Part shown: piece by piece, positions 31,284 to 46,297 of the stretch
Numbering within the stretch: the first letter of the stretch is position 1
How the letters are laid out: each line of letters starts with the position of its first letter
DNA from: Thioalkalivibrio thiocyanodenitrificans ARhD 1
Lineage (GTDB): Bacteria; Pseudomonadota; Gammaproteobacteria; Ectothiorhodospirales; Ectothiorhodospiraceae
Assembly (NCBI RefSeq): GCF_000378965.1
Contig: NZ_KB900537.1
Coordinates: 1 to 64,000 of the forward strand
Length of the DNA stretch: 64,000 nt
Direction of reading: 5' to 3'
Notes under the pieces: generated by a model
Database searches by the model: none
The model's input: the letters and a program-made list of their open reading frames with translations, nothing else
Told to the model about the DNA's origin: nothing
Translations under genes and position numbers: made by a program

Positions 31284-31425
31284 CTATGCACATCCTCAAG
31301 ATCGTGCTCGAGACGCCGGCGCCTCCTCATTCCCCGGGCAGCCGATCAGGAGCACCCCTCGCGGGCACGAAGCCCCCTCAGGTGCTATTCTGCCCTCAGG
31401 GGTGGAGCCGCCCGCCGCTCGGTCC

Positions 31426-31431
31426 CTATAC
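31426..31431 (+). promoter_or_regulatory. Sigma-S-like -10, CCTCTTGAGG class
   Basis: CTATACCTCTTGAGGGCAAC, 35 bases before the ATG at 31466. Confidence 0.75.
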
Positions 31432-31465
31432 CTCTTGAGGGCAACACATAATGCGGGAGGAATAG

Positions 31466-32272
31466 ATGCCTGATTACACGATCCTGATGAAGCGCGAGCC
31501 TGCCGTTGAGGGTGGGAGTGAGTGCGCGAATTTCTACTGGGAAGCGCCAAACGGCCGCATCTTCCGGGTGCGTGAGTTTGAGGACAGCGCTCAAGCGTAC
31601 TTCCTTGAGGAGATGTGCCCATCAGGGCGTCGCTTCTCGACTGACGCGTCGGGAAATCACTATGATTTTCGAGACGACCCTGTGATCGAGCGCCTGCTGG
31701 GCGATCCGAATTCGTTCAGGGCCCGGCTGAATGCGGCTGGCATCTCGGAGGATGAGGTGATCTACGTCGGCGCCGGCCTGGGAATGGGCACCATCTACTA
31801 CGCCACGCTCGATGCCTGCAAGGCTGCTATCGAGGCCGCCCTGGAGAGTAATACGTGGTATAGCGGGTACTCGAAAGAACTGGCAGAACAGCAATCCGCA
31901 GAGTACCAGCGAAGCGGCCGTGCCGCCGCCGAGCGCCAGGCCTGGGAGGATAGCAAGAGAGCGCTGCGCGAGCAGGCCATGCAGGAGCCCGGGTTTTTCA
32001 AGGGCTGCCACAACATGTTCGGGCCATTGAGCAAGGAGATCAAAGCCGAGATCCTGTCGTACATCAATGAGCCGAGCTGCGAGCAATGGAACCGGATCTA
32101 CAGCCTCATGGTCAGCTCGACCACGACACTTTGGCAGGCGTGGGTCAAGTTCGACCCGAGCGCGCCGACCTCGCTTCCTGCGGGGACTGACGGAGAGCAC
32201 AGGTGGCCCCGGATACCGGAGCCTGAAACCCTGATCGAGGCCATCAAAAAAGCTGCAAGCCAGACTGATTGA
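31466..32272 (+). CDS. Hypothetical protein
   Basis: A 268-residue soluble protein (MPDYTILMKREPAVEGGSEC...). A helical, Arg/Glu-rich central part (~130-175) separates two mixed alpha/beta parts. No recognised motif. GGGAGGAATAG precedes the ATG. Own promoter and terminator. Confidence 0.65.
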   Translation: MPDYTILMKREPAVEGGSECANFYWEAPNGRIFRVREFEDSAQAYFLEEMCPSGRRFSTDASGNHYDFRDDPVIERLLGDPNSFRARLNAAGISEDEVIYVGAGLGMGTIYYATLDACKAAIEAALESNTWYSGYSKELAEQQSAEYQRSGRAAAERQAWEDSKRALREQAMQEPGFFKGCHNMFGPLSKEIKAEILSYINEPSCEQWNRIYSLMVSSTTTLWQAWVKFDPSAPTSLPAGTDGEHRWPRIPEPETLIEAIKKAASQTD

Positions 32273-32279
32273 ATACAAA

Positions 32280-32312
32280 CACCCCTTGGACATGCGCCAA
32301 GGGGTGTTCATT
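32280..32312. terminator. Bidirectional terminator
   Basis: CACCCCTTGG/CCAAGGGGTG hairpin between convergent genes, with TTCATTTT on the plus side. Confidence 0.8.
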
Positions 32313-32331
32313 TTGAAGTGCGGGATATCGC

Positions 32332-32520
32332 CTAGCGCTTCTCCGATGCCCTGCCGGCCTTGACAGGTCTCGGTCTCTGAAGCTTCAGGTAATCTTCGAT
32401 GGCTGCCTGCTCGGTAGGAAACCAGTGCCAACCTCCGTCCAGCTTGAACAGCTGCTGCCCAGTTCCCTCGCCGTGCTTGGTGCGCATCTTTGTGCCTTCC
32501 GGCACCTTAATGTCTGTCAT
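32332..32520 (-). CDS. Small basic hypothetical protein
   Basis: A 62-residue protein (KVPEGTKMRTKHGEGTGQQL then FKLDGGWHWFP) with strand-rich N-terminus. GGAGTAGGATGCG precedes the ATG, and the promoter element is at 32561. No family recognised. Confidence 0.6.
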   Translation of the reverse strand: MTDIKVPEGTKMRTKHGEGTGQQLFKLDGGWHWFPTEQAAIEDYLKLQRPRPVKAGRASEKR

Positions 32521-32560
32521 CGCATCCTACTCCTGGTCAATTGTATTGCCGCTACCCTCT

Positions 32561-32566
32561 GTGTAG
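32561..32566 (-). promoter_or_regulatory. Sigma-S-like -10 element (minus, ATTCCCTACAC)
   Basis: 40 bases before the ATG of the 62-residue gene. AGAGGGTAGC follows. Confidence 0.6.
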
Positions 32567-32620
32567 GGAATCTGCGCAGGCGACCAGGCGCAACCCCGGG
32601 TGAGGGGAAGGTCAAACATC

Positions 32621-32815
32621 TCAGAAGTCCGGGTGGTTTCTACTGCCAAGCCGCAGAGATGGAGTGACTCTGCGCACGCCCCCGGCATCTGAGCTGGAGC
32701 GCTCGCCCTTATCGGGCCCGCTCAGGCGGGGCCTTTTCCGACCCAGAACCAGCCTCCGGGAGGCTTTCTCGTCGTCCAGGATTCTTCGCAGGTCCTTGCT
32801 GATCTGTGCGCGCAC
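32621..32815 (-). CDS. Possible small basic protein
   Basis: A ~64-residue frame (GTG at 32815, GAGGAGG six bases upstream; ATG at 32821 also possible). The start (RAQISKDLRRILDDEKASRR) looks like a real helix, but the second half is low complexity and the frame lies over two plus-strand terminator-like hairpins. Uncertain. Confidence 0.3.
   Translation of the reverse strand: MRAQISKDLRRILDDEKASRRLVLGRKRPRLSGPDKGERSSSDAGGVRRVTPSLRLGSRNHPDF
32707..32780 (+). terminator. Two terminator-like hairpins in tandem
   Basis: GGCCCGCTCAGGCGGGGCC followed by TTTTCC, then AGCCTCCGGGAGGCT followed by TTCTCG. No plus-strand gene ends just upstream. They may insulate the second tRNA operon or end a short RNA from ~32600. 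Confidence 0.45.
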
Positions 32816-32878
32816 CGCCATCCTCCTCGCAAAGCGCCAATGGGTGGTACTGTATAGGCATCTCGCGCATCAGCGCCG

Positions 32879-32908
32879 TTGAAAACCCGCATCAACATGC
32901 GCTATACT
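32879..32908 (+). promoter_or_regulatory. tRNA-operon promoter (TTGAAA-18-TATACT)
   Basis: -35 TTGAAA at 32879, 18-base spacer, -10 TATACT at 32903. Same architecture as 28418-28447. Confidence 0.8.
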
Positions 32909-32934
32909 ATGAAATTCTGACGTTTACCAAGAAC

Positions 32935-33060
32935 ATGACCATGCCCTTTTCTCTTGCGACAACCGGAACACTCTTAGCCTGCGCTCACGCCGGCCGCGCC
33001 CGGTTGCGCGCCTCCTTTGCCGGCACCTGTTGCCGCGCTGACTCTCCCCGAGCCCTTTAA
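32935..33060 (+). CDS. 41-residue leader ORF of the second tRNA operon
   Basis: ATG to TAA, 42 codons (MTMPFSLATTGTLLACAHAG...), ~27 bases after the tRNA promoter. It has no clear ribosome site. The frame has the same length as that at 28483 but little sequence similarity. Could be chance. Confidence 0.25.
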   Translation: MTMPFSLATTGTLLACAHAGRARLRASFAGTCCRADSPRAL

Positions 33061-33158
33061 GCGCTCCCCGCGCAGGGCTCGAAGGCCCTGCGACTCCTAC
33101 CGATGCTCCTCATCCAAAAGTCACGCAGGGCGGCTCAAGGCCCTTTGTCGCCTGAGCC

Positions 33159-33172
33159 TGCTCTTTAACAAT
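33159..33172 (+). promoter_or_regulatory. boxA antitermination site
   Basis: TGCTCTTTAACAAT, identical to the boxA-containing stretch of E. coli rRNA leaders, 10 bases before tRNA-Arg. It implies NusB/NusE-dependent antitermination of this tRNA operon. Confidence 0.7.
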
Positions 33173-33182
33173 CAGGATACCC

Positions 33183-33259
33183 GCCCCTGTAGCTCAGCGG
33201 ATCAGAGCGCCCGGCTACGAACCGGGAGGCCGGAGGTTCGAGTCCTTCCAGGGGCGCCA
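33183..33259 (+). tRNA. tRNA-Arg (ACG)
   Basis: GCCCCTG/CAGGGGC acceptor, CCCGG/CCGGG stem, loop CTACGAA, encoded CCA. Confidence 0.95.
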
Positions 33260-33264
33260 ATTTC

Positions 33265-33349
33265 GCTCCGGTGGCGAAGCTGGTAGACGCAGGGCACTTA
33301 AAATGCCCCGCCGGCAGGCATGCGGGTTCGACTCCCGCCCGGAGCACCA
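33265..33349 (+). tRNA. tRNA-Leu (TAA)
   Basis: GCTCCGG/CCGGAGC acceptor, GGGCA/TGCCC stem, loop CTTAAAA, long variable arm, encoded CCA. Confidence 0.95.
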
Positions 33350-33354
33350 ATTCA

Positions 33355-33429
33355 GAGCCGTACGCCAAATGGTTTGGCGCAGGTCTGCAAAACCTGTCCC
33401 AGCGGGTTCGATTCCCGCACGGCTCTCCA
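33355..33429 (+). tRNA. tRNA-Cys (GCA)
   Basis: GAGCCGT/ACGGCTC acceptor, CAGGT/ACCTG stem, loop CTGCAAA, GCGGG/CCCGC T-stem, encoded CCA. Position 8 appears to be A. Confidence 0.88.
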
Positions 33430-33443
33430 TTTCCAGCGGGCAT

Positions 33444-33475
33444 AGAAAAGCAGGAGAGGAAAGTCCCTCTCCTGC
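33444..33475 (-). terminator. Terminator (minus)
   Basis: GCAGGAGAGG/CCTCTCCTGC hairpin; CTTTTCT follows on the minus strand. It ends the gene at 33492 and may also stop the plus-strand tRNA transcript. Confidence 0.75.
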
Positions 33476-33491
33476 GTTGAAAGGTCGGCGC

Positions 33492-34352
33492 TCAGACGCA
33501 CCGCTCGATCACTTGCTTGAGCGATTCGATTCGCTCCTGGCAAAGCCTCACATGCTCGTCCAGATCGCGCCCGAAAGGCGGCTTACGCCTGCCTTCCAGG
33601 ACATCCTCGGCTTCCTTCTCAAGGCGCACTATGATGTCGGCATCGCGCTCCTCGCGATCACCAAACAGCAAGCTTCGGAAGTAATCCTCCTCCTCCAGCA
33701 AACTTGCGGAGTATGCCTCGATCTTCTCGCCCATCAGATGGCGCAACACCGCCTGGACTGCCTGCGCTTCATGACCTTCGGCCGGGAAGCAGTTGATCTC
33801 GTAGGGCTCGTCGCTCGGTGGCTCTCCGGAGCCATCCGGGTAACGATAAACCCCGGGGTTGTGCAGGCTTCCCGTGAAGACCCAGGCTGGCAAATCCACC
33901 GCCCGGTTTTCGCCCTCGGGTCCGACCCTCACGGTGAGAGGGAGGGGCCCGAGCTCCAGGTAATAGCCGGATCCGAGATCTATCCCGCCGTACTCCCCGA
34001 ACTCCATGTCATCCGAGGAGACCGCTCGGGCCTCATCGAGGCCGAACTGACGAAGCATCGGATTCAGGTAATCAAGCATCAGAGACAGTCGCCGCGCCCG
34101 AGCCTCCTCGTCTAGCGCAGGAAGCTCACAGTTCGGATAGCGCTGCCCGAAGTATCTCCACAGCCTTGCGCATCCGATTGTCACCATGTGCGCCGGTGCC
34201 AGGCTTTGCTCAACCTTCCCTCGGCGCTCCTTGCGGTAGAAGACCTTCACGTCACCGCCGGCCGGGTTATCAGGATCAAGCTCAATTGCAGTGATGCTGC
34301 AATTGCCTCGCTCCGGGTTTCCGAGACGGTCCACAAACTCGTTCATATTCAT
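33492..34352 (-). CDS. Hypothetical protein
   Basis: A 286-residue acidic protein (MNMNEFVDRLGNPERGNCSI...). The C-terminal ~80 residues are charged and helical. No motif recognised. GAGGA precedes the ATG. It lies between two tRNA-Arg genes on the opposite strand; its promoter is the minus element at 34388. Confidence 0.65.
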   Translation of the reverse strand: MNMNEFVDRLGNPERGNCSITAIELDPDNPAGGDVKVFYRKERRGKVEQSLAPAHMVTIGCARLWRYFGQRYPNCELPALDEEARARRLSLMLDYLNPMLRQFGLDEARAVSSDDMEFGEYGGIDLGSGYYLELGPLPLTVRVGPEGENRAVDLPAWVFTGSLHNPGVYRYPDGSGEPPSDEPYEINCFPAEGHEAQAVQAVLRHLMGEKIEAYSASLLEEEDYFRSLLFGDREERDADIIVRLEKEAEDVLEGRRKPPFGRDLDEHVRLCQERIESLKQVIERCV

Positions 34353-34387
34353 TTCATCCTCGCATCAAGAGTCTACGGTCTCCCCTG

Positions 34388-34393
34388 GTATAG
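34388..34393 (-). promoter_or_regulatory. Sigma-S-like -10 element (minus, ACTCGCTATACC)
   Basis: 36 bases before the start at 34352, and just upstream of plus-strand tRNA-Arg(CCG). Confidence 0.65.
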
Positions 34394-34406
34394 CGAGTCG
34401 CGTTTC

Positions 34407-34483
34407 GCCCCTGTAGCTCAGCGGATCAGAGCGCCCGGCTCCGGACCGGGAGGTCGGAGGTTCAAGTCCTCCCAGGGGCGCCA
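34407..34483 (+). tRNA. tRNA-Arg (CCG)
   Basis: GCCCCTG/CAGGGGC acceptor, CCCGG/CCGGG stem, loop CTCCGGA, encoded CCA. Most of the body is identical to the tRNA-Arg(ACG) at 33183, suggesting duplication followed by anticodon change. Confidence 0.95.
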
Positions 34484-34501
34484 TTGGTTGGCGCCAGATT
34501 G

Positions 34502-34507
34502 CTATAC
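34502..34507 (+). promoter_or_regulatory. Sigma-S-like -10 element (GATTGCTATACAC)
   Basis: Only five bases separate CTATAC from the ATG at 34513, so the mRNA should be leaderless. Confidence 0.65.
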
Positions 34508-34512
34508 ACCTC

Positions 34513-35295
34513 ATGGCAAGCAACCCGATTCTCCGTCTTGAGCGCAACCCATCCGGCCGCGATTTCGTGGTCGGCGATATCCACGGGCAGTTCCACCTGC
34601 TCGACAAGCTCATGAGCATCGCAAGGTTCGACCCCTCGAGGGATCGCATCCTGTGCGTTGGCGATCTGGTGGATCGAGGGCGCGACAGTGAGCGGTGCCT
34701 CGAGTTTCTGCGCGAGCCCTGGTTTTTCAGTGTACGTGGAAATCACGAGCAGGCAATCATCACCGCCTGGGAGAGCATGGATGATTTGCAGTGCCTCTTG
34801 TGGGTTTCGCGCATGGGTGGCGCATGGTGGACAACCATGGGCCGTGCGCGCCAGTGCGAGTTCGCAGACGCTTTCTCGTGCCTTCCGATCATCATCGAAG
34901 TCCCCTTCGATCAAGGAACGGCGGGCATCGTGCACGCAGAGCCTGTCTGTGGGCAGGACTGGGCGCATTCCAGGGCAATGGCCCACGAACTGGCGCGCGG
35001 GGCGACGCACTGGCACTGCCCTCTCTTGTGGGGCCGCTCGCGGATCCAGAGCCACCGTGCCCTGCCGGTTGAGGGGGTCACCCTCGTATATACGGGGCAT
35101 ACGATCTGCGATGCGCCTCGGCGCAGCGCCAATGTCGTACACCTGGACACCGGCGCCTTTCTTGAGGGGCAGCGCCGCGCGAACCGCAATTACAGGCTCA
35201 CCATGGCCGAGCTCGGCGTGGGCATGCCCGGGGTGACTCACGGCTTTATCAAGGATGAGGGCGTTGAGTTGCTCATCAGAAGATTGCCGGGCTGA
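34513..35295 (+). CDS. PPP-family Ser/Thr protein phosphatase
   Basis: A 260-residue metallophosphatase of the lambda/PrpA type: GDIHGQ (22-27), GDLVDRG (50-56), RGNHE (74-78) and GHT near 196, which bind two metals and the phosphate. Such enzymes remove phosphate from Ser/Thr (sometimes His/Tyr) of proteins. No ribosome site precedes the ATG, and the promoter core ends five bases before it, so translation is probably leaderless. No protein kinase is visible in the window. Confidence 0.85.
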   Translation: MASNPILRLERNPSGRDFVVGDIHGQFHLLDKLMSIARFDPSRDRILCVGDLVDRGRDSERCLEFLREPWFFSVRGNHEQAIITAWESMDDLQCLLWVSRMGGAWWTTMGRARQCEFADAFSCLPIIIEVPFDQGTAGIVHAEPVCGQDWAHSRAMAHELARGATHWHCPLLWGRSRIQSHRALPVEGVTLVYTGHTICDAPRRSANVVHLDTGAFLEGQRRANRNYRLTMAELGVGMPGVTHGFIKDEGVELLIRRLPG

Positions 35296-35328
35296 CTCCA
35301 GGCGCTCGCAAATCCTCTGGATTATTAG

Positions 35329-35334
35329 CTATAT
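35329..35334 (+). promoter_or_regulatory. Sigma-S-like -10 variant (TTAGCTATATG)
   Basis: 12 bases before the ATG at 35347; a very short leader. Confidence 0.4.
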
Positions 35335-35346
35335 GGCATCACGCCC

Positions 35347-35478
35347 ATGGAACCGATGGAAAAACAATCTCGACCGCTTCACCAGAAAATCCTTCTGGTG
35401 GTCTACATCATTATCGCGGGGGAACTCCTGGCCACGCTGCTGGGGTTGCTTGTTCTAAGGAAAATGGGGTTCTTGTAG
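35347..35478 (+). CDS. 43-residue single-span membrane protein
   Basis: ATG to TAG, 44 codons. A charged N-terminus (MEPMEKQSRPLHQK) precedes a strong span (ILLVVYIIIAGELLATLLGL) and a basic end. The final G of the stop codon is the first base of tRNA-Thr. No ribosome site is evident. Function unknown. Confidence 0.5.
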   Translation: MEPMEKQSRPLHQKILLVVYIIIAGELLATLLGLLVLRKMGFL

Positions 35479-35552
35479 CCGCCGTAGTTCAGTGGCAGAA
35501 CACTCCCTTGGTAAGGGAGAGGTCGTGAGTTCAAACCTCACCGGCGGCACCA
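35478..35552 (+). tRNA. tRNA-Thr (GGT)
   Basis: GCCGCCG/CGGCGGC acceptor, CTCCC/GGGAG stem, loop TTGGTAA, TTCAAAC T-loop, encoded CCA. It starts on the last base of the upstream small gene. Confidence 0.95.
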
Positions 35553-35587
35553 TACGCTCGACAGATAACAGGAAATCAAGGATCAGC

Positions 35588-36133
35588 ATGCTGGAAGCAC
35601 TCCACGCCATGACGACACCGGCGCTGCTGGCTGGTTTGCTGGCCGCCACGCTTCAAATCGTGGCGTTCTCGCAACGCAGCCGAGCTGCCATCCTGTTCAT
35701 CTACGGACTGGCGATATTCGCCTGGGCCGCGCATTTCTTCCTCCTCGGCGCCATCGCCTCCTCGGTGATCGTTGCCCTCTCGGCCCTTCGCACCTGGCTG
35801 TTTATCCGCTACCCGTCAACCATGCTGGCCATGGCCTTTATCGTGGGGACGGTGCTTGTGTTCCTGATCTCGCCGTCGCTACTGACCGCGCTGGCGGGCG
35901 CCGGCACGGTACTGATCATTCTCTCGAATCTTGCCGGATCGACCGAAAGGCTGCGGCTGTACCTGTTCGGCGGGATATTCCTGATCCTGACGCACGATCT
36001 TCTGGCGGGCTCGCCTGTGGCGGCTGCGGCCGATCTGCTGTCTTTGCTGTCTATCGCCTACGGCGCCTGGAGGTCGAGAGCGTCCGCAAAAACGACCGCC
36101 CTCGGCCCCCGTTGCCCGAAAGCCGCGCGCTAA
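35588..36133 (+). CDS. YgjV-like inner-membrane protein
   Basis: A 181-residue, five- to six-span membrane protein. LAATLQIVAFSQRSRAAILF and the following FIYGLAIFAWAAHFFLLGA pattern, then ALSALRTWLF, fit the bacterial YgjV family (uncharacterised inner-membrane proteins). AAGGA lies near the ATG at 35588. The last four bases overlap the convergent gene at 36130. Confidence 0.65.
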   Translation: MLEALHAMTTPALLAGLLAATLQIVAFSQRSRAAILFIYGLAIFAWAAHFFLLGAIASSVIVALSALRTWLFIRYPSTMLAMAFIVGTVLVFLISPSLLTALAGAGTVLIILSNLAGSTERLRLYLFGGIFLILTHDLLAGSPVAAAADLLSLLSIAYGAWRSRASAKTTALGPRCPKAAR

Positions 36134-36570
36134 GCCGCTTTCTTGACGCGGCGCCGGCGCTTGGGCTTGGCGCGCCGATTGGCCGCGGCTTCGATCCGCT
36201 TCAGGTCCTTTTCGGCAACGCCCTCCAGCTTGGCGACAGCGGTCATGACCTGCTTCTCGACCCTCTGCACCTGCTTGAGTGCTCGCACTGCGCTGTCGAG
36301 ATCGATCTTCGCCCGCACCCGCGCCACGCGCGCCACGCTCACCCTTTCTCGAGCCTTATCTTTTTGTGCGCCACTGCGCGCGGCCTTCTGGCGCTCCATT
36401 GCCTTTGCAACGCGCTCCTTTGCAGTTTCGAGCATCGCCTGCTTGCGTTCAACGGCGGCCTCGGCCTTCAAACGCTGCTTGGCGTGCTTCTCGATCGCCT
36501 TGTTCATCGTCTCGCCAGGTGTCATTGGCTTGCTGACCCTGCGCCTTGCTTTTCTCTTCTTTGTGGCCAT
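36130..36570 (-). CDS. Lys/Arg/Ala-rich nucleoid-like protein
   Basis: A 146-residue, very basic protein: MATKKRKARRRVSKPM at the start and RRAKPKRRRRVKKAA at the end flank a long Ala/Lys/Glu-rich helix with coiled-coil pattern. Composition resembles histone-H1-like or KfrA-type DNA-binding proteins. GGGAGACGCGCA precedes the ATG at 36570. It could compact or partition the element's DNA; this is inference from composition. Confidence 0.65.
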   Translation of the reverse strand: MATKKRKARRRVSKPMTPGETMNKAIEKHAKQRLKAEAAVERKQAMLETAKERVAKAMERQKAARSGAQKDKARERVSVARVARVRAKIDLDSAVRALKQVQRVEKQVMTAVAKLEGVAEKDLKRIEAAANRRAKPKRRRRVKKAA

Positions 36571-36682
36571 TGCGCGTCTCCCTTTCGTTGATGATCCCGG
36601 CAATTCTAGCCCCCGGGGTACACCAACTCAAACACAAACAGCACCTTCGCCGAATCCCCTATCCGACGCACAGCCGGATTCC

Positions 36683-36688
36683 CTATAC
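36683..36688 (+). promoter_or_regulatory. Sigma-S-like -10 element (ATTCCCTATACG)
   Basis: 33 bases before the transglycosylase ATG. CACCAGGCCACAAC follows. Confidence 0.65.
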
Positions 36689-36720
36689 GAAGCACCAGGC
36701 CACAACCCAGAAGGTGCATC

Positions 36721-37296
36721 ATGAAAGGTATCTATTTCTGTTTTCTGGTGAGCTGCACGGTGGCTCTTCTTGCCGTGACCTCGCCAAGCCAATCCACGGA
36801 AGATCTGCGCGTCAACCTCGACCTGCCTGAGCCCCAGGAATCCGTTCCGCACAGCAGGGGGTACGCACCGAGCGCCGGCGAATTGGCGCAGAGCATCGCG
36901 CAGGCGTACCCAAGTATTCGAGGTCGTGAGCTCGAAGCTGCCGGCTGGATTCTGCGTGCCTCAGCGAGAACCAACGTCCCGTGGGAGATTCTCTCGGCTC
37001 TGATCGCCACGGAGTCCTCGTATCGGCTCAATGTGCGATCAGCCACCGGTGCGGTGGGCCCTGCGCAGGTACAGCCCTTGTGGTGGGACTCGCTTGGGTA
37101 TGACTTGAAAGATCCTGCCCAGAACATCCTCGCCGCGGCGGTCATCCTTCAGGAATACAGGAAGGCGTGCGGTGACTGGGACTGCGCTCTCAGGGCCTAC
37201 AACGTAGGTCTTACCGCGCACCTCGCAGGTCAGCAGAGAAAGGCGGAGGAGAGATACATCCGCAAAATCGATCTCGCCATGGCGAAGTTCGATTAG
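36721..37296 (+). CDS. Lytic transglycosylase (SLT type)
   Basis: Cleaves peptidoglycan glycan strands, locally opening the wall for conjugation or pilus machinery (VirB1/PilT-like role). The 191-residue protein has a signal sequence (hydrophobic 4-20, cut near 25), then the SLT domain at ~70-185 with catalytic Glu98 in IATESSYRLNV, followed by SATGAVGPAQVQP and AYNVG. AGAAGGTG precedes the ATG. Own promoter and terminator. Confidence 0.88.
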   Translation: MKGIYFCFLVSCTVALLAVTSPSQSTEDLRVNLDLPEPQESVPHSRGYAPSAGELAQSIAQAYPSIRGRELEAAGWILRASARTNVPWEILSALIATESSYRLNVRSATGAVGPAQVQPLWWDSLGYDLKDPAQNILAAAVILQEYRKACGDWDCALRAYNVGLTAHLAGQQRKAEERYIRKIDLAMAKFD

Positions 37297-37305
37297 CTTG
37301 ATTTC

Positions 37306-37337
37306 AGCAGCCCCGTGTCCTTGCGGGGCTGCTTTCT
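37306..37337 (+). terminator. Rho-independent terminator
   Basis: AGCAGCCCCG/CGGGGCTGCT hairpin followed by TTCTT. Confidence 0.85.
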
Positions 37338-37354
37338 TGAAAGAGGAGGGGGAA

Positions 37355-37942
37355 GTGAACACCGTAGAACCGGTTGGCCAGCGCGCCACACCATCGATTC
37401 TGGCACTTGACGTCGCCGGGCGGCCTGTTGAATGGCTGCACTGGCGCTACGCTGTGCGCGCCTATGCCTCAGAGAAGGTGGCCTGGACGTACGGCGATAT
37501 CATCTACACGGCAACCGGGGGCACCAGCGCTCGTACCGGGCTGGTTTCAACCATGGATCTGGCCGCGGTGGTGGCGCTCAAGGGCCTTACCGCCAAGAAT
37601 CTCTGGGATATCACGCCTCACCTGAGCAACAGGGCTCTCTTTCAAAGAGACAACTACACCTGCATGTATTGCGGCGTGAAGTACCCGGGCAAGGTACTCA
37701 CACGCGATCACGTGATCCCGCGCGGGCAAGGTGGCGAGGATGTCTGGGGCAATGTCCTATGCGCTTGTAGATCATGCAACCTGGCCAAGGGGTGCAAAAC
37801 TCCCGAGCAGGCCGGTATGCCGCCCCTGGCGGTCCCGTATACCCCGAACCACGCCGAGGCCCTGATCCTTTGCAATCGTCATATCGTGGCCGATCAGATG
37901 GAGCTTCTGAATCAACACGTGCCGCCCGCGCGCCGGCGCTAG
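37355..37942 (+). CDS. HNH endonuclease
   Basis: A 195-residue protein starting at the GTG at 37355 behind GAGGAGGGGGA. The C-terminal half is an HNH domain: CMYCG (C103, C106), TRDHVIPRGQGG (D118, H119), WGNVLCACRSCNLAKG (N133, C138, C141), then the usual KTPEQAGMP-type tail. The N-terminal half (~1-90) matches the region often found in front of such HNH domains. Substrate unknown: defence, homing or repair nuclease. Confidence 0.85.
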   Translation: MNTVEPVGQRATPSILALDVAGRPVEWLHWRYAVRAYASEKVAWTYGDIIYTATGGTSARTGLVSTMDLAAVVALKGLTAKNLWDITPHLSNRALFQRDNYTCMYCGVKYPGKVLTRDHVIPRGQGGEDVWGNVLCACRSCNLAKGCKTPEQAGMPPLAVPYTPNHAEALILCNRHIVADQMELLNQHVPPARRR

Positions 37943-37986
37943 GGCGCCTTGTGCACATGGAAGTGCAAATCCACCTGCCGCACTCG

Positions 37987-37992
37987 CTATAC
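37987..37992 (+). promoter_or_regulatory. Sigma-S-like -10 element (ACTCGCTATACA)
   Basis: 57 bases before the ATG at 38049. Confidence 0.55.
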
Positions 37993-38048
37993 AAGGCCGG
38001 CCGGCCTTTCGCCGGCCTCGGAACAGCCAACCACGGCCGAGCGAGAAT

Positions 38049-38792
38049 ATGCACACAGAGAGACAGTCGTTCAAAGAGCAATCACGCCCGTTGCCCTCAA
38101 CGCCCGCATTGAGCGCACGCCCCGCCATCCGCCTGCTTGCGGAAGCATCGGCCCCGTACGCCAGAAGCGTGTTCTGGCTTGAGGGGATCGCCAATGGACG
38201 CCCTGGGCTGTGTATCGGTCCGCTCTACGTTCACCAGGCGCTCGATCTCGGCGATCAGGTGGAGGCGGCGCTCAGCTCGGACCTTCCCGTACGCCTTCCA
38301 CACATCCGCCCCGAAGCCACATTACCTGCCTCCTGGCAGCCGAGCGTGCTGCTCGCGCTGGGGCCGCTTCGAATTGCCTCAGGCCACGGCGGGCCCTTGA
38401 GTGTAAACGGAGAGCTTCGCGCCGTGCGCCAGTTCGCCGTCAAGACATTCATTCGCGGCTCGGAGGCCGAGCTCTCGCCAATCGAGGAGAACAAGAAGTT
38501 CGCGCTGATGGCGCTGTGCGTGGCCGCCGGGGAATGTGACCTCTCCTGGGTTTGCGATCTGCTGGAGAGAAACCCGGGCCTTTGTGCTGCCCTGGATTAT
38601 TTCTGCGAACACGACCCCGTCGAAGCGGTGGTGCGCTCGATCACTCACGGGAAGGCCAGGGAAACCGCGGCGCGCCCTGTTCTCAAGCGCCTGAGCCGAT
38701 CCGGGTTCTCCGCCGACGCGAGAGATCAGGCGCTGCGGGCGCGGGTTCTGCGGCTCATCAACAACGATCGTCCGCATCTTCACATGTGCTAG
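38049..38792 (+). CDS. Hypothetical protein
   Basis: A 247-residue soluble protein with no recognised domain. The C-terminal third is Arg-rich and helical. The ATG at 38049 has a weak site (GAGAAT); the start may lie further in. It is followed after 12 bases by the pilin-like gene at 38805. Confidence 0.55.
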   Translation: MHTERQSFKEQSRPLPSTPALSARPAIRLLAEASAPYARSVFWLEGIANGRPGLCIGPLYVHQALDLGDQVEAALSSDLPVRLPHIRPEATLPASWQPSVLLALGPLRIASGHGGPLSVNGELRAVRQFAVKTFIRGSEAELSPIEENKKFALMALCVAAGECDLSWVCDLLERNPGLCAALDYFCEHDPVEAVVRSITHGKARETAARPVLKRLSRSGFSADARDQALRARVLRLINNDRPHLHMC

Positions 38793-38804
38793 GGCCCTTC
38801 GCGC

Positions 38805-39368
38805 ATGCCTTTCCTGATCTACGCAACCATTCTGGCCTCGCTGGTGGCCTACACCATCAACGCCAATTTTCTCTCCGCGATGCGCTCGACATCGGAGGAC
38901 GTCGCGGAGGTGACTTTTGCGCAGACCGAATCAGCCAGCTTCAGGCTGGCGGCCGGGGTGCGAGCCTACTTCTCTGAGCACGAGGCCCTCCCTCTCTCGC
39001 TCGCGTCGCTCCAGTCGAGCCACGCATTTCACCCTCCCGCCATGAAAGGGGTTCAGTGGTCGGTGGGGCAGGGCGTCTACGAGGATGAGCGCGTCGGCGT
39101 GTGGGCGTGCCTACAGGGGGATCTAAGCCTTGAGCAATCTCGCGGCTTGAACAAGGCAGTCTCGCGGTTTGCACAGGACATCACCGGCGTTGGCTCTCAG
39201 TGTGGCCTGGCGCCTGTCTCGCAGCCGAGAGTCCTGGCCGGCAACCACGCCATCACCATTTGGCTTGCGCTTGAGCCCGAGCCCCTGGAGGAGCCTCCGG
39301 GGGAGGGTGAGGATCCGCCAGTGGAGCCGCCGGAGCCGCCCCAGGTTGAGATGCTGCTTCACCGGTAG
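38805..39368 (+). CDS. Pilin-like membrane-anchored protein, paralogue 1
   Basis: A 187-residue protein with a single N-terminal span (FLIYATILASLVAYTINANF) and a periplasmic domain with one Cys pair (WACLQG and SQCGLAP), ending in a Pro/Glu-rich tail. It shares GVWACLQGDLS, SQCGLAP and ITIWLALE positions with the next gene (GTWLCLTGSLS, SCGLAP, ITIWLML), so the two are paralogues. N-terminal span plus C-terminal disulfide loop suggests a minor pilin or pseudopilin, without a classical prepilin cleavage site. Confidence 0.55.
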   Translation: MPFLIYATILASLVAYTINANFLSAMRSTSEDVAEVTFAQTESASFRLAAGVRAYFSEHEALPLSLASLQSSHAFHPPAMKGVQWSVGQGVYEDERVGVWACLQGDLSLEQSRGLNKAVSRFAQDITGVGSQCGLAPVSQPRVLAGNHAITIWLALEPEPLEEPPGEGEDPPVEPPEPPQVEMLLHR

Positions 39369-39436
39369 GGTGGCGCCGCTGATCACGCTCACGCACACCA
39401 TTCCTGCCTTCGCGCACCACCTGCTCCTTTGATTCG

Positions 39437-39442
39437 CTATAC
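39437..39442 (+). promoter_or_regulatory. Sigma-S-like -10 element (ATTCGCTATACG)
   Basis: 43 bases before the ATG at 39485. CACAACAGG follows. Confidence 0.65.
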
Positions 39443-39484
39443 GCACAACAGGAAGACGCAAGACATAGCCAACGAGATACTCTC

Positions 39485-39967
39485 ATGCCTCACTTACTGA
39501 TCACCATCGTCGCGATTATCATGATGTCTATCATGACGTTAGCGACGATCAACTACCTTCCTGCCGATCGCCCGGTTGTCGAACTGACTCGAGACCTTGT
39601 CCTGGAGGCGGAAAGGTCTACGCGCCGGGCCACCGAGCGATACGGCCTCGACCATGGCACGCTTCCGTCAAACAAGGCCTCTCTGGTCCCTGATTACCTG
39701 TTCGAGCCAGCCCGCCCCCACGGGCTTGAGTGGTTTATTGGACGCAACTCCTACGACGGCCTCAATTCCGGCACATGGCTGTGTCTGACCGGTTCCTTGA
39801 GCGCCGCCCAGGCCAAGGGCGCCTCTCTCGCGATCCTGCGCCTCTCGCCTGATGTGGTTGCCCAGGGGGCGAGCTGCGGCCTGGCGCCCGATCAAAGCAC
39901 CACTATTGAGCAGACCTCCGCCGCGATCACCATCTGGCTGATGCTTGACTCGCATCTCGAGCAATAG
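39485..39967 (+). CDS. Pilin-like membrane-anchored protein, paralogue 2
   Basis: A 160-residue protein with an N-terminal span (LLITIVAIIMMSIMTLATI) and a periplasmic domain with Cys in GTWLCLTG and SCGLAP. It is a paralogue of the gene at 38805 but has its own promoter. Likely an envelope or pilus component. Confidence 0.55.
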   Translation: MPHLLITIVAIIMMSIMTLATINYLPADRPVVELTRDLVLEAERSTRRATERYGLDHGTLPSNKASLVPDYLFEPARPHGLEWFIGRNSYDGLNSGTWLCLTGSLSAAQAKGASLAILRLSPDVVAQGASCGLAPDQSTTIEQTSAAITIWLMLDSHLEQ

Positions 39968-40032
39968 CCCGCATAGCCTCCCCACGTCGGCCCCGGCACC
40001 GGCCTTTCTTTCCCTGCCTCGCGCTTTGTTCC

Positions 40033-40038
40033 CTATAC
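40033..40038 (+). promoter_or_regulatory. Sigma-S-like -10, CCTCTTGAGG class
   Basis: TTCCCTATACCTCTTGAGTC, 30 bases before the ATG at 40069. Confidence 0.75.
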
Positions 40039-40068
40039 CTCTTGAGTCCAGTAAAAGAGAGATAGGAT

Positions 40069-41187
40069 ATGAACCTGATAGCGCATCTGAGTCATACGGA
40101 TCTGGACGGCTATGCCGCCCAGTACATCACCCGAAAGGTGTCCGAGCTCTGCGGCATTCCCGCGCTGTTCGAGAACACCAACTATGGGGACGAGATCCTC
40201 ACCCAGTTTGACAGCCTCGTTGGTCGGGTCATCGACTCGGCGCCACAGGGCCCCGTGATGTTCCTGGTCACAGACGTCAATCTGACCGTCGAGCAGTGCG
40301 AGTACTTCGATCGCCAGGCACGGTATCTTTCCGACGCCGTGGGCCATGAAGTGCGGCTCATGCTCCTGGATCATCACATCACTGGCGAGGAAGCCGCCGC
40401 GCGCTTTACGTGGTACCGCCTGGATGTCGATGCCTGCGCCACGCTGCTCACGTATCGAAGCTGGGAGCCCGCGATCGAGGACAACACGGCCGCGTGCCAG
40501 TATCTTGGCTATGTGGCTGACGTGGTCAACGCCGTGGATCTTTGGCGTGAGGACGATGAGCTCTTCGAGGCCGGCAATCTGCTCTCCGAGCTGTTCTCCG
40601 GTATCGATGGCTACGTTCCCGAGGTGATGAGTGAGCTTCGCCGAGATTATCGTCATTTCTTGATCGGTGAGGTCACTCAGCTGCTGTTCAGCGGCGCGTC
40701 TCTTGACGACGTGGAGGATATGCTGCCCGTGATCCGCCGCCAGTTCATCAAGCAGTACCCCGGGCTGAACGAGGAGTCTCGCGAGATCATGGAAAGCCCT
40801 GACATGACCACCAGCAAGAAGTACTACTGGCTGGTTTACCAGAACCTGGCGGCCGACCTTGAAAAGGGGAGGTATCAGGTCGTCGAGGTTGACGGGCTCA
40901 AGGGCCTGGTGCTCCATCAGCTCCCGTACGGGGCATTTCAGTGCGCCTCGCACTGGCTGTTGAGAAACGACCATGGCCTTGATTTCGTGCTGCAAAGCAC
41001 GGTGCGCGGCAATCTTTCGTTGCGCTCGATTGGCGACACGGATGTCTCCGCCTTGTCGAAGAGATACTTCAACGGAGGAGGGCACAAGAATGCCGCCGGC
41101 GGGCGCTTGCCTACCCGTGAGCAGATCAGGAACCCCGAGCATGCCCACCGCCTTGTACTGAAGGCATTGGGCCTGAAAGCGGCTTAA
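40069..41187 (+). CDS. DHH-family phosphoesterase (NrnB-like)
   Basis: A 372-residue enzyme with motif HTDLDGYAA (H9, D11, D13), VTDVN near 68, LLDHH (D101-H103) and DHHA1-type NGGGHKNAAGG near 340. Members of the DHH/NrnB class hydrolyse short RNA, pGpG, pAp or cyclic dinucleotides. With the diguanylate cyclase at 43078, pGpG breakdown is an attractive role, but substrate cannot be read from sequence. AGAGAGATAGGAT precedes the ATG; own promoter and terminator. Confidence 0.82.
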   Translation: MNLIAHLSHTDLDGYAAQYITRKVSELCGIPALFENTNYGDEILTQFDSLVGRVIDSAPQGPVMFLVTDVNLTVEQCEYFDRQARYLSDAVGHEVRLMLLDHHITGEEAAARFTWYRLDVDACATLLTYRSWEPAIEDNTAACQYLGYVADVVNAVDLWREDDELFEAGNLLSELFSGIDGYVPEVMSELRRDYRHFLIGEVTQLLFSGASLDDVEDMLPVIRRQFIKQYPGLNEESREIMESPDMTTSKKYYWLVYQNLAADLEKGRYQVVEVDGLKGLVLHQLPYGAFQCASHWLLRNDHGLDFVLQSTVRGNLSLRSIGDTDVSALSKRYFNGGGHKNAAGGRLPTREQIRNPEHAHRLVLKALGLKAA

Positions 41188-41205
41188 CTGTTCAAGCTGA
41201 ATTCA

Positions 41206-41237
41206 CCCCGCAGCAGCAATGCTTGCGGGGTTTTTTG
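41206..41237 (+). terminator. Rho-independent terminator
   Basis: CCCCGCA/TGCGGGG hairpin followed by six T. Confidence 0.9.
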
Positions 41238-41245
41238 TTTCTGCC

Positions 41246-41290
41246 AGTAAAAATGACCCCCGCAACCCCGTATGGGATGCGAAGGTCATT
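41246..41290 (-). terminator. Terminator (minus)
   Basis: AATGACC/GGTCATT hairpin with an inner GCATCCC...GGGGTTGC part; a T-run follows on the minus strand. Confidence 0.7.
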
Positions 41291-41312
41291 GAAGAACGAT
41301 CCATTCAGCCGA

Positions 41313-41690
41313 TCAGGGCAGCGCGGGCATCGAGATGAACACATCCTCGCGCAAGCTCAGAGAGCGAAGGATCTCATCGAACATGGCGTCCGAGACAGCC
41401 TCGAATCCCAGCGTCTCGCAAAGCAAGGTGCTTTCGCTGTCTATGATACTCCTGACCCTCATCCCCTCACCGACGACGATATTCGCAGCAACAGGCACCA
41501 CGAACGAGTCGCCCTGGTACTCTGCGCTGCGCTCTCGATCAATCGCCCACGAGGCAAAGTAGTTGCCTCGCTCGGAGACCTCGACAGCCACGGCCCTCAA
41601 CGCAAGATCGCTGACCACCTCGACACTGAATTGCTCGGCAATCCAGGCAGGCATCACCACGGCGGTTTTCAGCTTATGGGTAAGACGCAT
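41313..41690 (-). CDS. Hypothetical protein
   Basis: A 125-residue protein with strand-rich centre (FVVPVAANIVVGEGMRVRSI). AGGAGGATGT precedes the ATG at 41690. Operon with the gene at 41719 on the same strand. No family recognised. Confidence 0.65.
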   Translation of the reverse strand: MRLTHKLKTAVVMPAWIAEQFSVEVVSDLALRAVAVEVSERGNYFASWAIDRERSAEYQGDSFVVPVAANIVVGEGMRVRSIIDSESTLLCETLGFEAVSDAMFDEILRSLSLREDVFISMPALP

Positions 41691-41718
41691 ACATCCTCCT
41701 GGGTAGATTCACCGGCCT

Positions 41719-42039
41719 TCACTGAGCGATGGCCATACAAGGCGACACCCCGGCACCGCACGACGCATTTTCCGTCGCGCAGCTCCGGCCGAGCACTACG
41801 CTCTGACCTGAGGTCGATATCGAGAAATGCTGCCCCTTCAGAGCCCTGATGCTTTCCACATCCGCATCGATTCTGCTCTTGAGCTCCCGAGGGCACGGCC
41901 CGCGATAGGTGAGCTCCAGGGTGGCGAACTCGAGAAACGCCAAGCGCTTGTAGTCGCCATCTTCATCCACCGTGCGATCGGCATACACAATGCCGGTCGG
42001 GTAGACCCCTGCAAAAAGCCTGTCCTCTGATTTGTTCAC
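41719..42039 (-). CDS. Conserved plasmid-type hypothetical protein
   Basis: A 106-residue protein. The GTG at 42039 is set by AAAAGGAG seven bases upstream; an ATG at 42057 is also in frame. The core GVYPTGIVYADRTVDEDGDY then KRLAFLEFATLEL is a pattern I have seen repeatedly in plasmid and phage hypothetical proteins. The C-terminal 20 residues are Cys/Ser-rich and may be element-specific. Function unknown. Confidence 0.65.
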   Translation of the reverse strand: MNKSEDRLFAGVYPTGIVYADRTVDEDGDYKRLAFLEFATLELTYRGPCPRELKSRIDADVESIRALKGQHFSISTSGQSVVLGRSCATENASCGAGVSPCMAIAQ

Positions 42040-42070
42040 TCGCTTACTCCTTTTCATGTGGCCTCGAGGG

Positions 42071-42076
42071 GTATAG
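42071..42076 (-). promoter_or_regulatory. Sigma-S-like -10 element (minus, GATCGCTATACC)
   Basis: 31 bases before the GTG at 42039. CCCTCGAGGCCAC follows, again palindrome-like. Confidence 0.65.
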
Positions 42077-42134
42077 CGATCCTACGCCCCGGCATGTCGA
42101 TTCGCCGCGGCGCGAAAATCCGCCGCGGTTTTCG

Positions 42135-42140
42135 CTATAT
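42135..42140 (+). promoter_or_regulatory. Sigma-S-like -10 variant (TTTCGCTATAT)
   Basis: 41 bases before the tRNA-Met gene. Confidence 0.5.
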
Positions 42141-42180
42141 CTCTGGCCTGGGGAGAAGTATCCCGGGCTCACACGACAGG

Positions 42181-42255
42181 TGCGGGGTGGTGTAAAGGCA
42201 GCATCCGAGGTTCATGATCTCGAGGATTCCGGTTCGATTCCGGTCCCCGCTACCA
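42181..42255 (+). tRNA. tRNA with anticodon CAT (Met or Ile2), U1-U72 mismatch
   Basis: GCGGGG/CCCCGC acceptor pairs from position 2, CGAGG/TCTCG anticodon stem, loop TTCATGA, TTCGATT T-loop, encoded CCA. Positions 1 and 72 are both T. A 1-72 mismatch marks bacterial initiator tRNA, but the anticodon stem lacks the initiator's three G-C pairs. Confidence 0.85.
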
Positions 42256-42274: not shown

Positions 42275-42976
42275 ATGGCCGACGATCTGGATTTCAGCAA
42301 CGTCACAGCAGACGCTTTCGGAATCAACGTATCCTCCCAGAGGATCGATGACCTCGATCGTCTTTGCCTCGATCATCTGCGCACCATAAAGGCCGCGGGG
42401 CGTATCCCGCGCGCGCTCGATCTCGCCTGCGGTGACGCGGCCATGGCTGCCCACATGCACCAGGCCGGAGCGCATGTGATTGCTGTCGATCGGGCGCTCC
42501 CTGGCGCGGATCAGCGCGTAGCGGGGATCACCTATGCAGAGGGCGATATGCGCACGCCGGCGCAGATTCCGGGCCCACCTCAGTTCGACACGATCCTGTG
42601 CCAGCGCGCCATCCATTATCTTCGCTATTTCGACGCGCTCTACCTTCTCAAGCACCTGCGCCAGCGCCTGACGGCCAATGGCGCGCTGTATCTCTCCGCT
42701 TCAGGGGTGAATTCAGAGCTGGGCACCGACTACCCGTCGGACACCGTGGTGGCCTCTCGCATGTCGCCGCTTTGTCATGAGATGGCGAAAAAGCACGGCA
42801 TCCATCACCCCGTGTGTCTCTACCGCCCTGATGAGCTTGCAGGCCTCGCCCGCGCCGCGGGCTTCTCGGTCGCCTTTCTTTGGGAGAGCGAGTTCGGCAA
42901 CGTGAAAGCCGTTCTCGTGCCGGACACGCAGACCGAATCCACGCCGCTTCGTCCAGAACCCGGTATTCGGCGGTAA
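42275..42976 (+). CDS. SAM-dependent methyltransferase
   Basis: A 233-residue class I methyltransferase. Motif I is ALDLACGDAAMA (~48-59), the acidic end of beta-2 is VIAVDRALP, followed by EGDMRTP, FDTILCQRAIHYL and LYLSASG. It starts 20 bases after the tRNA gene without a clear ribosome site, so it is probably co-transcribed with it. A tRNA or small-molecule substrate is possible; sequence does not decide. Confidence 0.75.
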   Translation: MADDLDFSNVTADAFGINVSSQRIDDLDRLCLDHLRTIKAAGRIPRALDLACGDAAMAAHMHQAGAHVIAVDRALPGADQRVAGITYAEGDMRTPAQIPGPPQFDTILCQRAIHYLRYFDALYLLKHLRQRLTANGALYLSASGVNSELGTDYPSDTVVASRMSPLCHEMAKKHGIHHPVCLYRPDELAGLARAAGFSVAFLWESEFGNVKAVLVPDTQTESTPLRPEPGIRR

Positions 42977-43077: not shown

Positions 43078-44574
43078 ATGAAAGTACTCGTCGCTGGCGG
43101 CGCCCACCTGGATATCCTGTCTTCGGTAAGAGACCCGGATGACCACCTCTTGCGCGGCGTGATCGACAAGCCGGGCTCTATCTCCATCAGCTGGGGCGGT
43201 ACGGCGTTCAACATCATGTCGCACCTGTGCGAGCGCGGCGCCCAGGTGAATTTCCTCTCGATCCTCAGAGAATCCTCATTGTCACGGCTGATCCAGCACG
43301 CAATCGAGAACTTCGGGGTGCGGCCCTACATCGATTATCGGGATGACATACCAGAGGCAGGGTTCTCCGGGCATCTTGTGAACGGAGAGCTCTACGATGC
43401 GGTCGCTTCATGCCCGGTGGACGTCGCCGCGCTCAAAGAGGATCGGATCCGCGAGGCGCTGGTCGGATGCGTCGCGATCATTGCGGATTGCAACCTGTCG
43501 ACTGAATCGCTCACTCGCCTGGGAGCGGCAGCCCGCGAGCGCGATATCCCGCTCTATGTCGCCGGCGTATCAGAGGCCAAGTGCCTGAAGCTTGCCCATC
43601 TGGCCGGCCACCCGAGGATGATTGCGTTCATGAATCGCAGGGAGGCCGCGGCGCTGGCAGGGTATATGGAATTTACCGCTCCCCCGGATTCGTCGATCCT
43701 CACGGCCTCGAAACTCGCGCGAAATCTCGAATGCCCGGTGGTCGTGACGATGGACAAGAACGGCGCCATCCTGTGCACCGCGGATCAACAGATCTCTCGC
43801 CACAAGAGCCGAACCCGCCTCGATCCGGAGAAAAATCACTGCCTCTCCGGCGCCGGCGATCTGCTCCTTGCGGAGACCGTCTGGCTTCACCGCAGCCAAG
43901 GAACCCCACTTGGCGATGCTGTCGAGCTCGCCCAGAAAGTCATCCCTGAAGCGCTTGAACGCCAAGAGGGCTGCTCGGTGAGGGCCAATGTGCTCGATGA
44001 GGCGTTCTCGTTTATCACCCGCATGGCCGACCAGGACCCCCTGACGAAACTGCTCAATCGCCGCGCCGGGATGGTTCGAATGGAGCACCAGGCCCAGCTC
44101 ATGGATCGATTCAGCAAGTCCATGAGCGTGATGTTTATCGATATCGACCGATTCAAGACCATCAATGACCGCTTCGGTCACGCCGTGGGTGACAAGGTGA
44201 TCCAGGCGACCGCCCGTCTGCTGGGCCAGCTGTTTCGCCGCTCTTCCGACCTGATCATCCGATGGGGCGGGGAGGAGTTCGTGGTCGTGACCTGTGACAT
44301 TCCCATGCCCGATGTGTGCGCTCTGGCGGAACAGCTGCGCGCGCAAGCAGAGCAATGCGAGCTCGAGGCCGTAGGGCGGTCGATCACCCTCTCCATAGGG
44401 GTCGCAGATCGCGCCCTTGGGGAAAGCCTCGACAGCCTGATCGAGCGCGCCGATGAGGCGCTCTACGCCGCCAAGGAAGGGGGCAGGAACAGGGTCCTGT
44501 GCGCACCCCACAAATCCCCGCCCTCGCGCGCAAACCTCAGCCTCGATTCGCTATACGAACACGCCCCGGGATGA
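43078..44574 (+). CDS. PfkB-type kinase fused to a GGDEF diguanylate cyclase
   Basis: A 498-residue fusion. Residues 1-~300 are a PfkB/ribokinase-like domain: WGGTAFNIMSHL near 41 (the N-terminal GG region), VVVTMDKNGAI, and SGAGDLLLAE with the catalytic-type Asp261. Residues ~325-490 are GGDEF: DPLTKLLNRR, FIDIDRFKTINDRFGHAVGD and GGEEF at 397-401. RSSD (388-391) five residues before GGEEF is the RxxD inhibitory c-di-GMP site. Both catalytic signatures look intact. AGGGGG precedes the ATG. Coupling nucleoside or sugar phosphorylation to c-di-GMP synthesis is an inference. Confidence 0.85.
   Translation: MKVLVAGGAHLDILSSVRDPDDHLLRGVIDKPGSISISWGGTAFNIMSHLCERGAQVNFLSILRESSLSRLIQHAIENFGVRPYIDYRDDIPEAGFSGHLVNGELYDAVASCPVDVAALKEDRIREALVGCVAIIADCNLSTESLTRLGAAARERDIPLYVAGVSEAKCLKLAHLAGHPRMIAFMNRREAAALAGYMEFTAPPDSSILTASKLARNLECPVVVTMDKNGAILCTADQQISRHKSRTRLDPEKNHCLSGAGDLLLAETVWLHRSQGTPLGDAVELAQKVIPEALERQEGCSVRANVLDEAFSFITRMADQDPLTKLLNRRAGMVRMEHQAQLMDRFSKSMSVMFIDIDRFKTINDRFGHAVGDKVIQATARLLGQLFRRSSDLIIRWGGEEFVVVTCDIPMPDVCALAEQLRAQAEQCELEAVGRSITLSIGVADRALGESLDSLIERADEALYAAKEGGRNRVLCAPHKSPPSRANLSLDSLYEHAPG
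44551..44556 (+). promoter_or_regulatory. Sigma-S-like -10 element (ATTCGCTATACG)
   Basis: Lies inside the 3' end of the PfkB-GGDEF gene, 54 bases before the dsbC-like ATG. Confidence 0.65.
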
Positions 44575-45619: not shown

Positions 45620-46297
45620 GTGACAGTCGAGCTCGTCATCCTGCAAGGGCATGTCGGTACCAACAAGGGACTCCAATCAAACGGATCCCGTGAGTACTGC
45701 CAGCTCTCATTGGCGACAGAGTACCTCGGAGAGAAGCGTTGGCATGAACTGGTGGCATTTGGCGCCCTCGCAAAGGTGGCCGCCAATTACGCCGAGAAAG
45801 GCCGCGAGATCGCCGTAGTAGGGCGCACTGCAAAAGTCGGCAGTTCCTCAAGACCAAGGACTCAGATCGTCATCGACGAGATCCACCTCGATACGATGGC
45901 GCTGACGATCATCCGCGGTAGAGTCGGCTACAACGAAGGCCTGATCAACCCCGGGCCAAAGCAGCTCTGCAAGATATCCGTTGCCGTCAACAAGCACAGC
46001 GGAGAAGGTCCTGAGTGGTACCGTGTTGCCTTATTCGGCAAGACCGCCGAGATTGCAGCCAGATACGCCGAGAAAGGGCGTACGGTCACGGTGATCGGCA
46101 AGATGAACACCAGGACATACACCAGGCATGGAGAGAAGCACTACTCCACCGAGCTGGTCGCCAAGAATCTCATGCTTGGCAGAAAACCAAGAGGGTCAGC
46201 CCATCCCCCTCAGGTAAAGAAGGCCGCTTCCGATGATATCTTCGGACTCAACGAATCACCGGCCAAACGACCTGTTGCTGACGTTTTTGTTTTCTAA
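45620..46297 (+). CDS. ssb: Single-stranded-DNA-binding protein with two OB folds
   Basis: A 225-residue protein with a tandem duplication of the SSB/OB domain: residues ~1-85 (QGHVGTNKGL...WHELVAFGALAKVAANYAEKG) and ~92-190 (RGRVGYNEGLI...WYRVALFGKTAEIAARYAEKG). Bacterial SSBs normally have one OB and form tetramers; a double OB would act as a dimer, as in Deinococcus. The C-terminal tip (DDIFGLNESP...VADVFVF) is only partly like the acidic DDDIPF tail. The GTG at 45620 follows AGGAGG. Own promoter and terminator. Confidence 0.85.
   Translation: MTVELVILQGHVGTNKGLQSNGSREYCQLSLATEYLGEKRWHELVAFGALAKVAANYAEKGREIAVVGRTAKVGSSSRPRTQIVIDEIHLDTMALTIIRGRVGYNEGLINPGPKQLCKISVAVNKHSGEGPEWYRVALFGKTAEIAARYAEKGRTVTVIGKMNTRTYTRHGEKHYSTELVAKNLMLGRKPRGSAHPPQVKKAASDDIFGLNESPAKRPVADVFVF

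Follow-up and report, generated by a model that had tools for sequence, protein, structure and literature searches.

Diguanylate cyclases synthesise c-di-GMP as dimers, an RxxD inhibitory (I) site five residues ahead of GGDEF marks a product-inhibited subset, and for most of these enzymes we know of no established input. In the described cyclases with N-terminal sensors, such as PleD, DgcB and SiaD, the sensor is a REC, PAS or GAF domain, a coiled coil or the like. Cyclases are also carried by mobile elements, DgcK and DgcL by SXT/R391 ICEs and Dgc137 by a Vibrio island, and such published enzymes can change host biofilm or motility (PMC10672970). Pseudouridine kinase (PsuK/YeiC; PDB 7vkp, 7vsk and 7vva from E. 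coli, 2nwh from A. tumefaciens) is an enzyme of PfkB fold; in E. coli, it is a homodimer in which the loop bearing Ser30 is supplied by the neighbouring protomer (PMC9247573).

The window analysed here, a 64,000-nucleotide stretch of the genome of Thioalkalivibrio thiocyanodenitrificans ARhD 1, encodes a protein in which a PfkB domain and a GGDEF domain stand in one chain, an architecture of which we are practically certain. Like PleD, DgcB and SiaD, the protein has a complete GGDEF domain with A-site, I-site, DxLT turn and helical linker; unlike them, it has a sensor of PfkB kinase fold. Like DgcK, DgcL and Dgc137, its gene is mobile-element cargo; unlike theirs, it encodes a different sensor domain, is paired with a methyltransferase gene and resides on a different element. 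Unlike PsuK, with which it has the PfkB fold in common, the protein is fused to GGDEF, is encoded in a genome with no PsuG, and has a methyltransferase as neighbour instead of PsuG. The output, c-di-GMP synthesis, is known; the sensor domain and the methyltransferase partner are new. Among the open-licence papers searched, none was found that describes a PfkB-GGDEF protein, in agreement with the remark in the preliminary description that such a cyclase had not been seen described. The methyltransferase partner, the derivation from PsuK in a genome lacking PsuG, the changes at the N1 contact and the K+/ATP site, and the conjugative setting go beyond that description. We put forward, as a tentative reading somewhat short of probable, that the protein is a soluble diguanylate cyclase under the control of a PsuK-derived PfkB domain, which acts mainly as a nucleoside receptor.

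The fusion gene and its homologue

The fusion gene (43078..44574, + strand) is an uninterrupted frame of 498 aa from ATG to TGA; an upstream TTG start gives a longer frame of 564 aa. Pfam finds both halves in the protein, PfkB with E=5e-8 and GGDEF with E=5e-40 at aa 317-472, and an AlphaFold2 model made from a 25-row alignment (pLDDT 83.9, pTM 0.67) has two domains joined via a helix at aa 305-318. The helical linker ahead of the GGDEF domain, assigned by DSSP on the model (aa 303-318; 43984..44031, + strand), is followed by a DPLT turn motif. The open frame, the Pfam matches and the model bear out the preliminary description of a PfkB-family kinase fused, in a 498-residue chain, to a GGDEF cyclase with an I-site.

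The GGDEF domain (aa 317-472; 44026..44493, + strand) matches the full Pfam PF00990 profile (1-161) with 137 bits, against a cut-off of 23.8, and TIGR00254 with 149 bits, against a cut-off of 37.4. The active-site loop reads GGEEF (aa 397-401; 44266..44280, + strand), and the I-site, RSSD (aa 388-391; 44239..44250, + strand), lies five residues ahead of it; at the equivalent places a homologous fusion, L027, has GGDEF and RGGD. Both fusions have an intact A-site, I-site, FIDIDRFKTINDRFGH stretch and DxLT turn. The kinase motif SGAGD, with the catalytic-base Asp261 (aa 257-261; 43846..43860, + strand; alignments and PMC9247573), is present alongside RSSD and GGEEF, so that all the motifs first reported as intact are so. 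We conclude that the GGDEF half is an intact-looking, predicted c-di-GMP-making enzyme.

The existence of a homologous PfkB-GGDEF fusion in another genome is hardly open to doubt. A single-sequence scan of genome contigs gave no match; a two-sequence profile, made from the window's PfkB part and its best relative in the class, was needed to find L027 and returned 49 loci in 84,980 species genomes. L027, on scaffold 22 of Trinickia mobilis, encodes a 456-aa fusion with Pfam matches to PfkB (78 bits) and GGDEF (120 bits). The two fusions align end to end (BLASTP E=2e-60, 32% identity, 493 columns), with 32% identity in the PfkB part (z=19 over shuffles) and 43% identity in the GGDEF part. Because each half has its homologue in an independent genome, the fusion is real, and neither a chance join nor an assembly join; L027 has both the same architecture and the same methyltransferase partner, which excludes such an error. 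Occurrence in a homologue had been set beforehand as the test of the fusion, and the fusion passed it. A third locus, from a gammaproteobacterial MAG (L053 5201-7020 / L010 1294-3044), has the methyltransferase and a related PfkB protein in which a hydrophobic (membrane) helix takes the place of GGDEF at the C-terminus; the membrane-helix form is possibly an alternative output of the methyltransferase-PfkB pair.

In total, two fusions and one related methyltransferase-PfkB pair were found. No other copy of the fusion was present in the genus, family and order (47 genomes), no second fusion in the plasmid collection, and only standalone kinases in wider genome samples. As the distribution scans worked with short patterns or on samples of genomes, further fusions may have escaped them. 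A phage origin was considered and rejected, with no matches in viral contigs, phage records or PHROGs; a defence system was likewise rejected, PADLOC giving merely generic methyltransferase-domain and GGDEF/Cas10-palm matches.

Ancestry and ligand pocket of the PfkB domain

The PfkB part (aa 1-300; 43078..43977, + strand), a putative nucleoside sensor, scores 33.0 bits with Pfam PfkB (cut-off 25.8), the weakest of the three proteins (L027, 78 bits; L053, 65 bits). By sequence, the solved structures nearest to it are 2nwh and E. coli pseudouridine kinase 7vkp, and its best fold match by VIA-align is chain 7vva_B of E. coli PsuK (Z 31.8, rmsd 2.3, 279 residues); ribokinases (Z about 31) tie with it and adenosine kinases come near, the two families lying at Z 28-31. 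Near-equal fold scores of ribokinases and adenosine kinases are expected within one superfamily. The NCBIfam equivalog for PsuK, NF007355, gives 26.6 bits, against a cut-off of 540 bits. In a maximum-likelihood tree, the PfkB domains of the window protein, L027 and L053 form one group (support 91/81), which adjoins alphaproteobacterial PsuK-like kinases; because the branches are long, the grouping is likely but not firm. We conclude that the window's PfkB domain is very probably of PsuK-type ancestry. The earlier impression of a nucleoside-kinase-like domain holds, in that the nearest kin are pseudouridine kinases and most nucleoside contacts are kept.

In a genome scan by motif search, with no profile, a PsuG-like motif lay about 400 bp downstream of the kinase in all 47 of 47 standalone relatives; the closer standalone kinases in the class and family samples have a PsuG-like motif beside them too, and a complete PsuG frame is seen at L079 and L080. 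None of the three genomes that carry the methyltransferase pair (the window's own genome, the Trinickia genome and G262) has a PF04227 (PsuG) match, E. coli serving as positive control. PsuG-mediated degradation is therefore not the role, and ordinary pseudouridine catabolism is excluded.

The published E. coli PsuK contacts (PMC9247573) served as the reference for the pocket. In alignments, the ribose contacts D12, G41 and N45, the base contacts N139, S165 and K168, the Mg ligands N186 and E189, and the catalytic D261 are kept in the window protein, L027 and L053, and the three base contacts are kept in nearly all PsuK-type kinases too. The window residues D12, N45, N139, S165, K168, N186, E189 and D261 correspond to D16, N45, N143, S167, K170, N187, E190 and D256 of E. 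coli PsuK, and the window protein has the PfkB motifs GGxxxN (G40-G41..N45), NxxE (N186..E189) and GxGD (G258AGD261).

Other positions set the window protein apart from PsuK. The N1-sensing Ser30 is Asp in all three proteins, within a D-[KR]-x-G loop, and is Ser in 55 of 57 standalone relatives, a call that rests on the motif-anchored alignment A6; in a second alignment, the loops of L027 and L053 are displaced by one residue. The window's N1-sensing loop hence carries neither the Ser nor the Thr of PsuK (Ser30' / Thr26'). Tyr97 is Phe (F96) in all three proteins, and Met114 is Cys or Thr in the methyltransferase-linked proteins (Cys in the window). An Asp or Asn and a Thr ahead of GAGD form the monovalent-cation/ATP site, which is typical, not universal, in PfkB proteins. 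Asp or Asn occupies position 255 in 55 of 57 standalone relatives and is lost in all three proteins; the K+-site neighbours are C255 and S257 in the window and T and L in L027. Two further substitutions in the window are G226 to D and A262 to L, and L027 has GLGD. The changes of Ser30 and Tyr97 and the loss of Asp/Asn before GAGD, in all three proteins, speak for a changed ligand and for a weaker ATP/K+ site.

Judged from these alignments, the nucleoside side is better kept than the ATP/K+ side, which favours a receptor over a housekeeping kinase, without excluding activity. Since the catalytic Asp and the Mg ligands are still in place, the domain could have retained phosphorylating activity; with its N1 contact and K+/ATP site altered, it may bind without phosphorylating. 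The model has low confidence at about aa 21-30 and 190-260, so pocket geometry is not established from it.

The same residues bear on three other readings. The protein could be bifunctional, with a PfkB domain that still works as a nucleoside kinase, though with changed specificity, c-di-GMP synthesis being coupled to turnover or merely co-localised and the methyltransferase acting before or after the kinase in one modification pathway. Retention of Asp261, the NxxE Mg ligands, GGxxxN and GxGD in all three proteins, the strong Pfam scores of L027 and L053, and the absence of GGDEF from L053, whose PfkB domain may thus have its own job, are consistent with a kinase. We nevertheless regard it as rather doubtful, given that no Asp or Asn stands three residues before GAGD in any of the three, that the window protein is changed at 226 and 262 and L027 has GLGD, and that there is no PsuG to use the product. 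The domain could, alternatively, be a degenerated kinase that serves as a constitutive dimeriser, with GGDEF always on, the I-site as sole restraint and regulation through expression from the mobile element. The dimerisation of PsuK (PMC9247573), the weakness of the window's PfkB score and the loss of ATP-site residues all fit such a scaffold, but a mere scaffold would not need the nucleoside contacts, which are conserved between fusions only 32% identical in PfkB, and we consider it unlikely. That the domain senses a sugar, a ribose-type compound or a purine, and not a modified pyrimidine nucleoside, is very unlikely: the substitutions at Ser30, Tyr97 and Met114 change the base pocket, and ribokinases and adenosine kinases match the fold too, but the base-recognising N139, S165 and K168 are kept and the closest sequence kin is PsuK.

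The methyltransferase partner and proposed nucleoside control of the cyclase

Directly upstream of the PfkB gene at all three loci (3/3: the window, L027 and L010/L053) is a gene for a class I SAM-dependent methyltransferase, in the window a protein of 233 aa (42275..42976, + strand; Pfam Methyltransf_23/25/11). At L027, the two genes overlap at an ATGA (methyltransferase end 5189, PfkB ATG 5186); at L010, on the minus strand, they do so too (methyltransferase end 2322, PfkB ATG 2325). In the window, a gap of 101 bp, with no overlap, separates methyltransferase and fusion, which counts against control of the cyclase by a nucleoside. Methyltransferase homologues are rare; they occur in 3 further genomes of the class sample (369 genomes) and in one genome besides that of Trinickia in its order (200 genomes), and there are none in the phylum sample (398 genomes) beyond the window's own genome. 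Orphan homologues without PfkB are present at L021 and L022, and at L096 (1384-3006) the protein encoded directly after a homologue looks, from its sequence, like a ROK-family sugar kinase, a fold unrelated to PfkB in the same position after the methyltransferase. The orphans and the ROK-like neighbour indicate that the methyltransferase-PfkB pairing is not obligate.

If the PfkB domain is a nucleoside receptor, a (modified) nucleoside would bind the PfkB dimer and the clasp would close; the helical linker would re-orient upon closure; the two GGDEF halves would meet and condense two GTP to c-di-GMP; and the RSSD I-site would provide product feedback on the cyclase. The methyltransferase would belong to the same pathway and, most simply, would make or remove the ligand. 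Because each protomer of E. coli PsuK receives its Ser30 loop from the other, ligand binding is coupled to the geometry of the dimer, and we infer a nucleoside-driven change of the clasp dimer as the simplest coupling of the PfkB and GGDEF halves. We also infer the ligand class, a receptor and not an enzyme, activation by dimerisation, the role of the methyltransferase and the downstream target. A GGDEF domain can also be active without ligand, which counts against nucleoside control.

Recurrence of the fusion and its methyltransferase partner in an unrelated bacterium suggests a nucleoside-sensing switch. Such a switch would tie c-di-GMP to nucleoside (RNA-turnover) status and would be an instance of a kinase turned into a signalling receptor; it would also add a signalling pair that is linked to a methyltransferase and travels on conjugative elements. 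Since both the structure and the ligand are known for the enzyme from which the input domain descends, the range of candidate ligands is narrow, and purified protein can be used to test them.

Replicon and mobile setting

The ends of the contig that carries the fusion (G000:C2, 301,689 bp) repeat 4442 bp at 99.96% identity (window 1-4442 versus the end of L092), which makes it a circular replicon of about 297 kb. The replicon has the F-type conjugation genes traN and traU, and the L027 fusion is flanked by an ArdC/Toprim protein on one side and by traG/virD4 plus virB1 on the other. By this gene content, the methyltransferase-PfkB pair rides on conjugative-type elements.

The plasmid also has tRNA arrays, with 14 tRNAs at window positions 28728-42255 and 23 tRNAs plus a tmRNA gene (tag ANDDSFDRALAA) at plasmid positions 112992-123464 (L093, L094), so that the stretches scanned contain at least 37 tRNA genes besides the tmRNA gene. 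With most amino acids covered, the tRNA set of this conjugative-type replicon is nearly complete. An association of the fusion with tRNA arrays as a general rule is unsupported, as L027 and L053 have no nearby tRNA genes.

A PilB/T2SSE-type ATPase with a match to the MshEN domain, a c-di-GMP-binding family (60017-61525, - strand), lies beside a T2SSF inner-membrane protein (58836-60104, - strand); the plasmid pilus may respond to c-di-GMP, with the PilB-like MshEN ATPase as a conceivable target. In a broader and improbable version of nucleoside control, methyltransferase and PsuK-derived receptor would be a two-gene mobile module whose lineage-specific output, GGDEF-made c-di-GMP or the membrane-anchored form, is switched by a modified nucleoside freed from RNA (e.g. 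pseudouridine or its N1-methyl form); on this plasmid with its tRNA and tmRNA genes, the module could signal that RNA or tRNA is being broken down and adjust the state of pilus or biofilm for plasmid transfer.

An HDOD-domain protein (58011-58763, - strand) adjoins TraU and the pilus genes, and an SSB-family protein (45629-46297, + strand) has two matched stretches, possibly a tandem-OB SSB. The plasmid further encodes a ribonucleotide reductase large subunit (window 18999-21155, + strand), a RecJ-like exonuclease (6249-8273, + strand) and a DNA topoisomerase (2796-4100, + strand).
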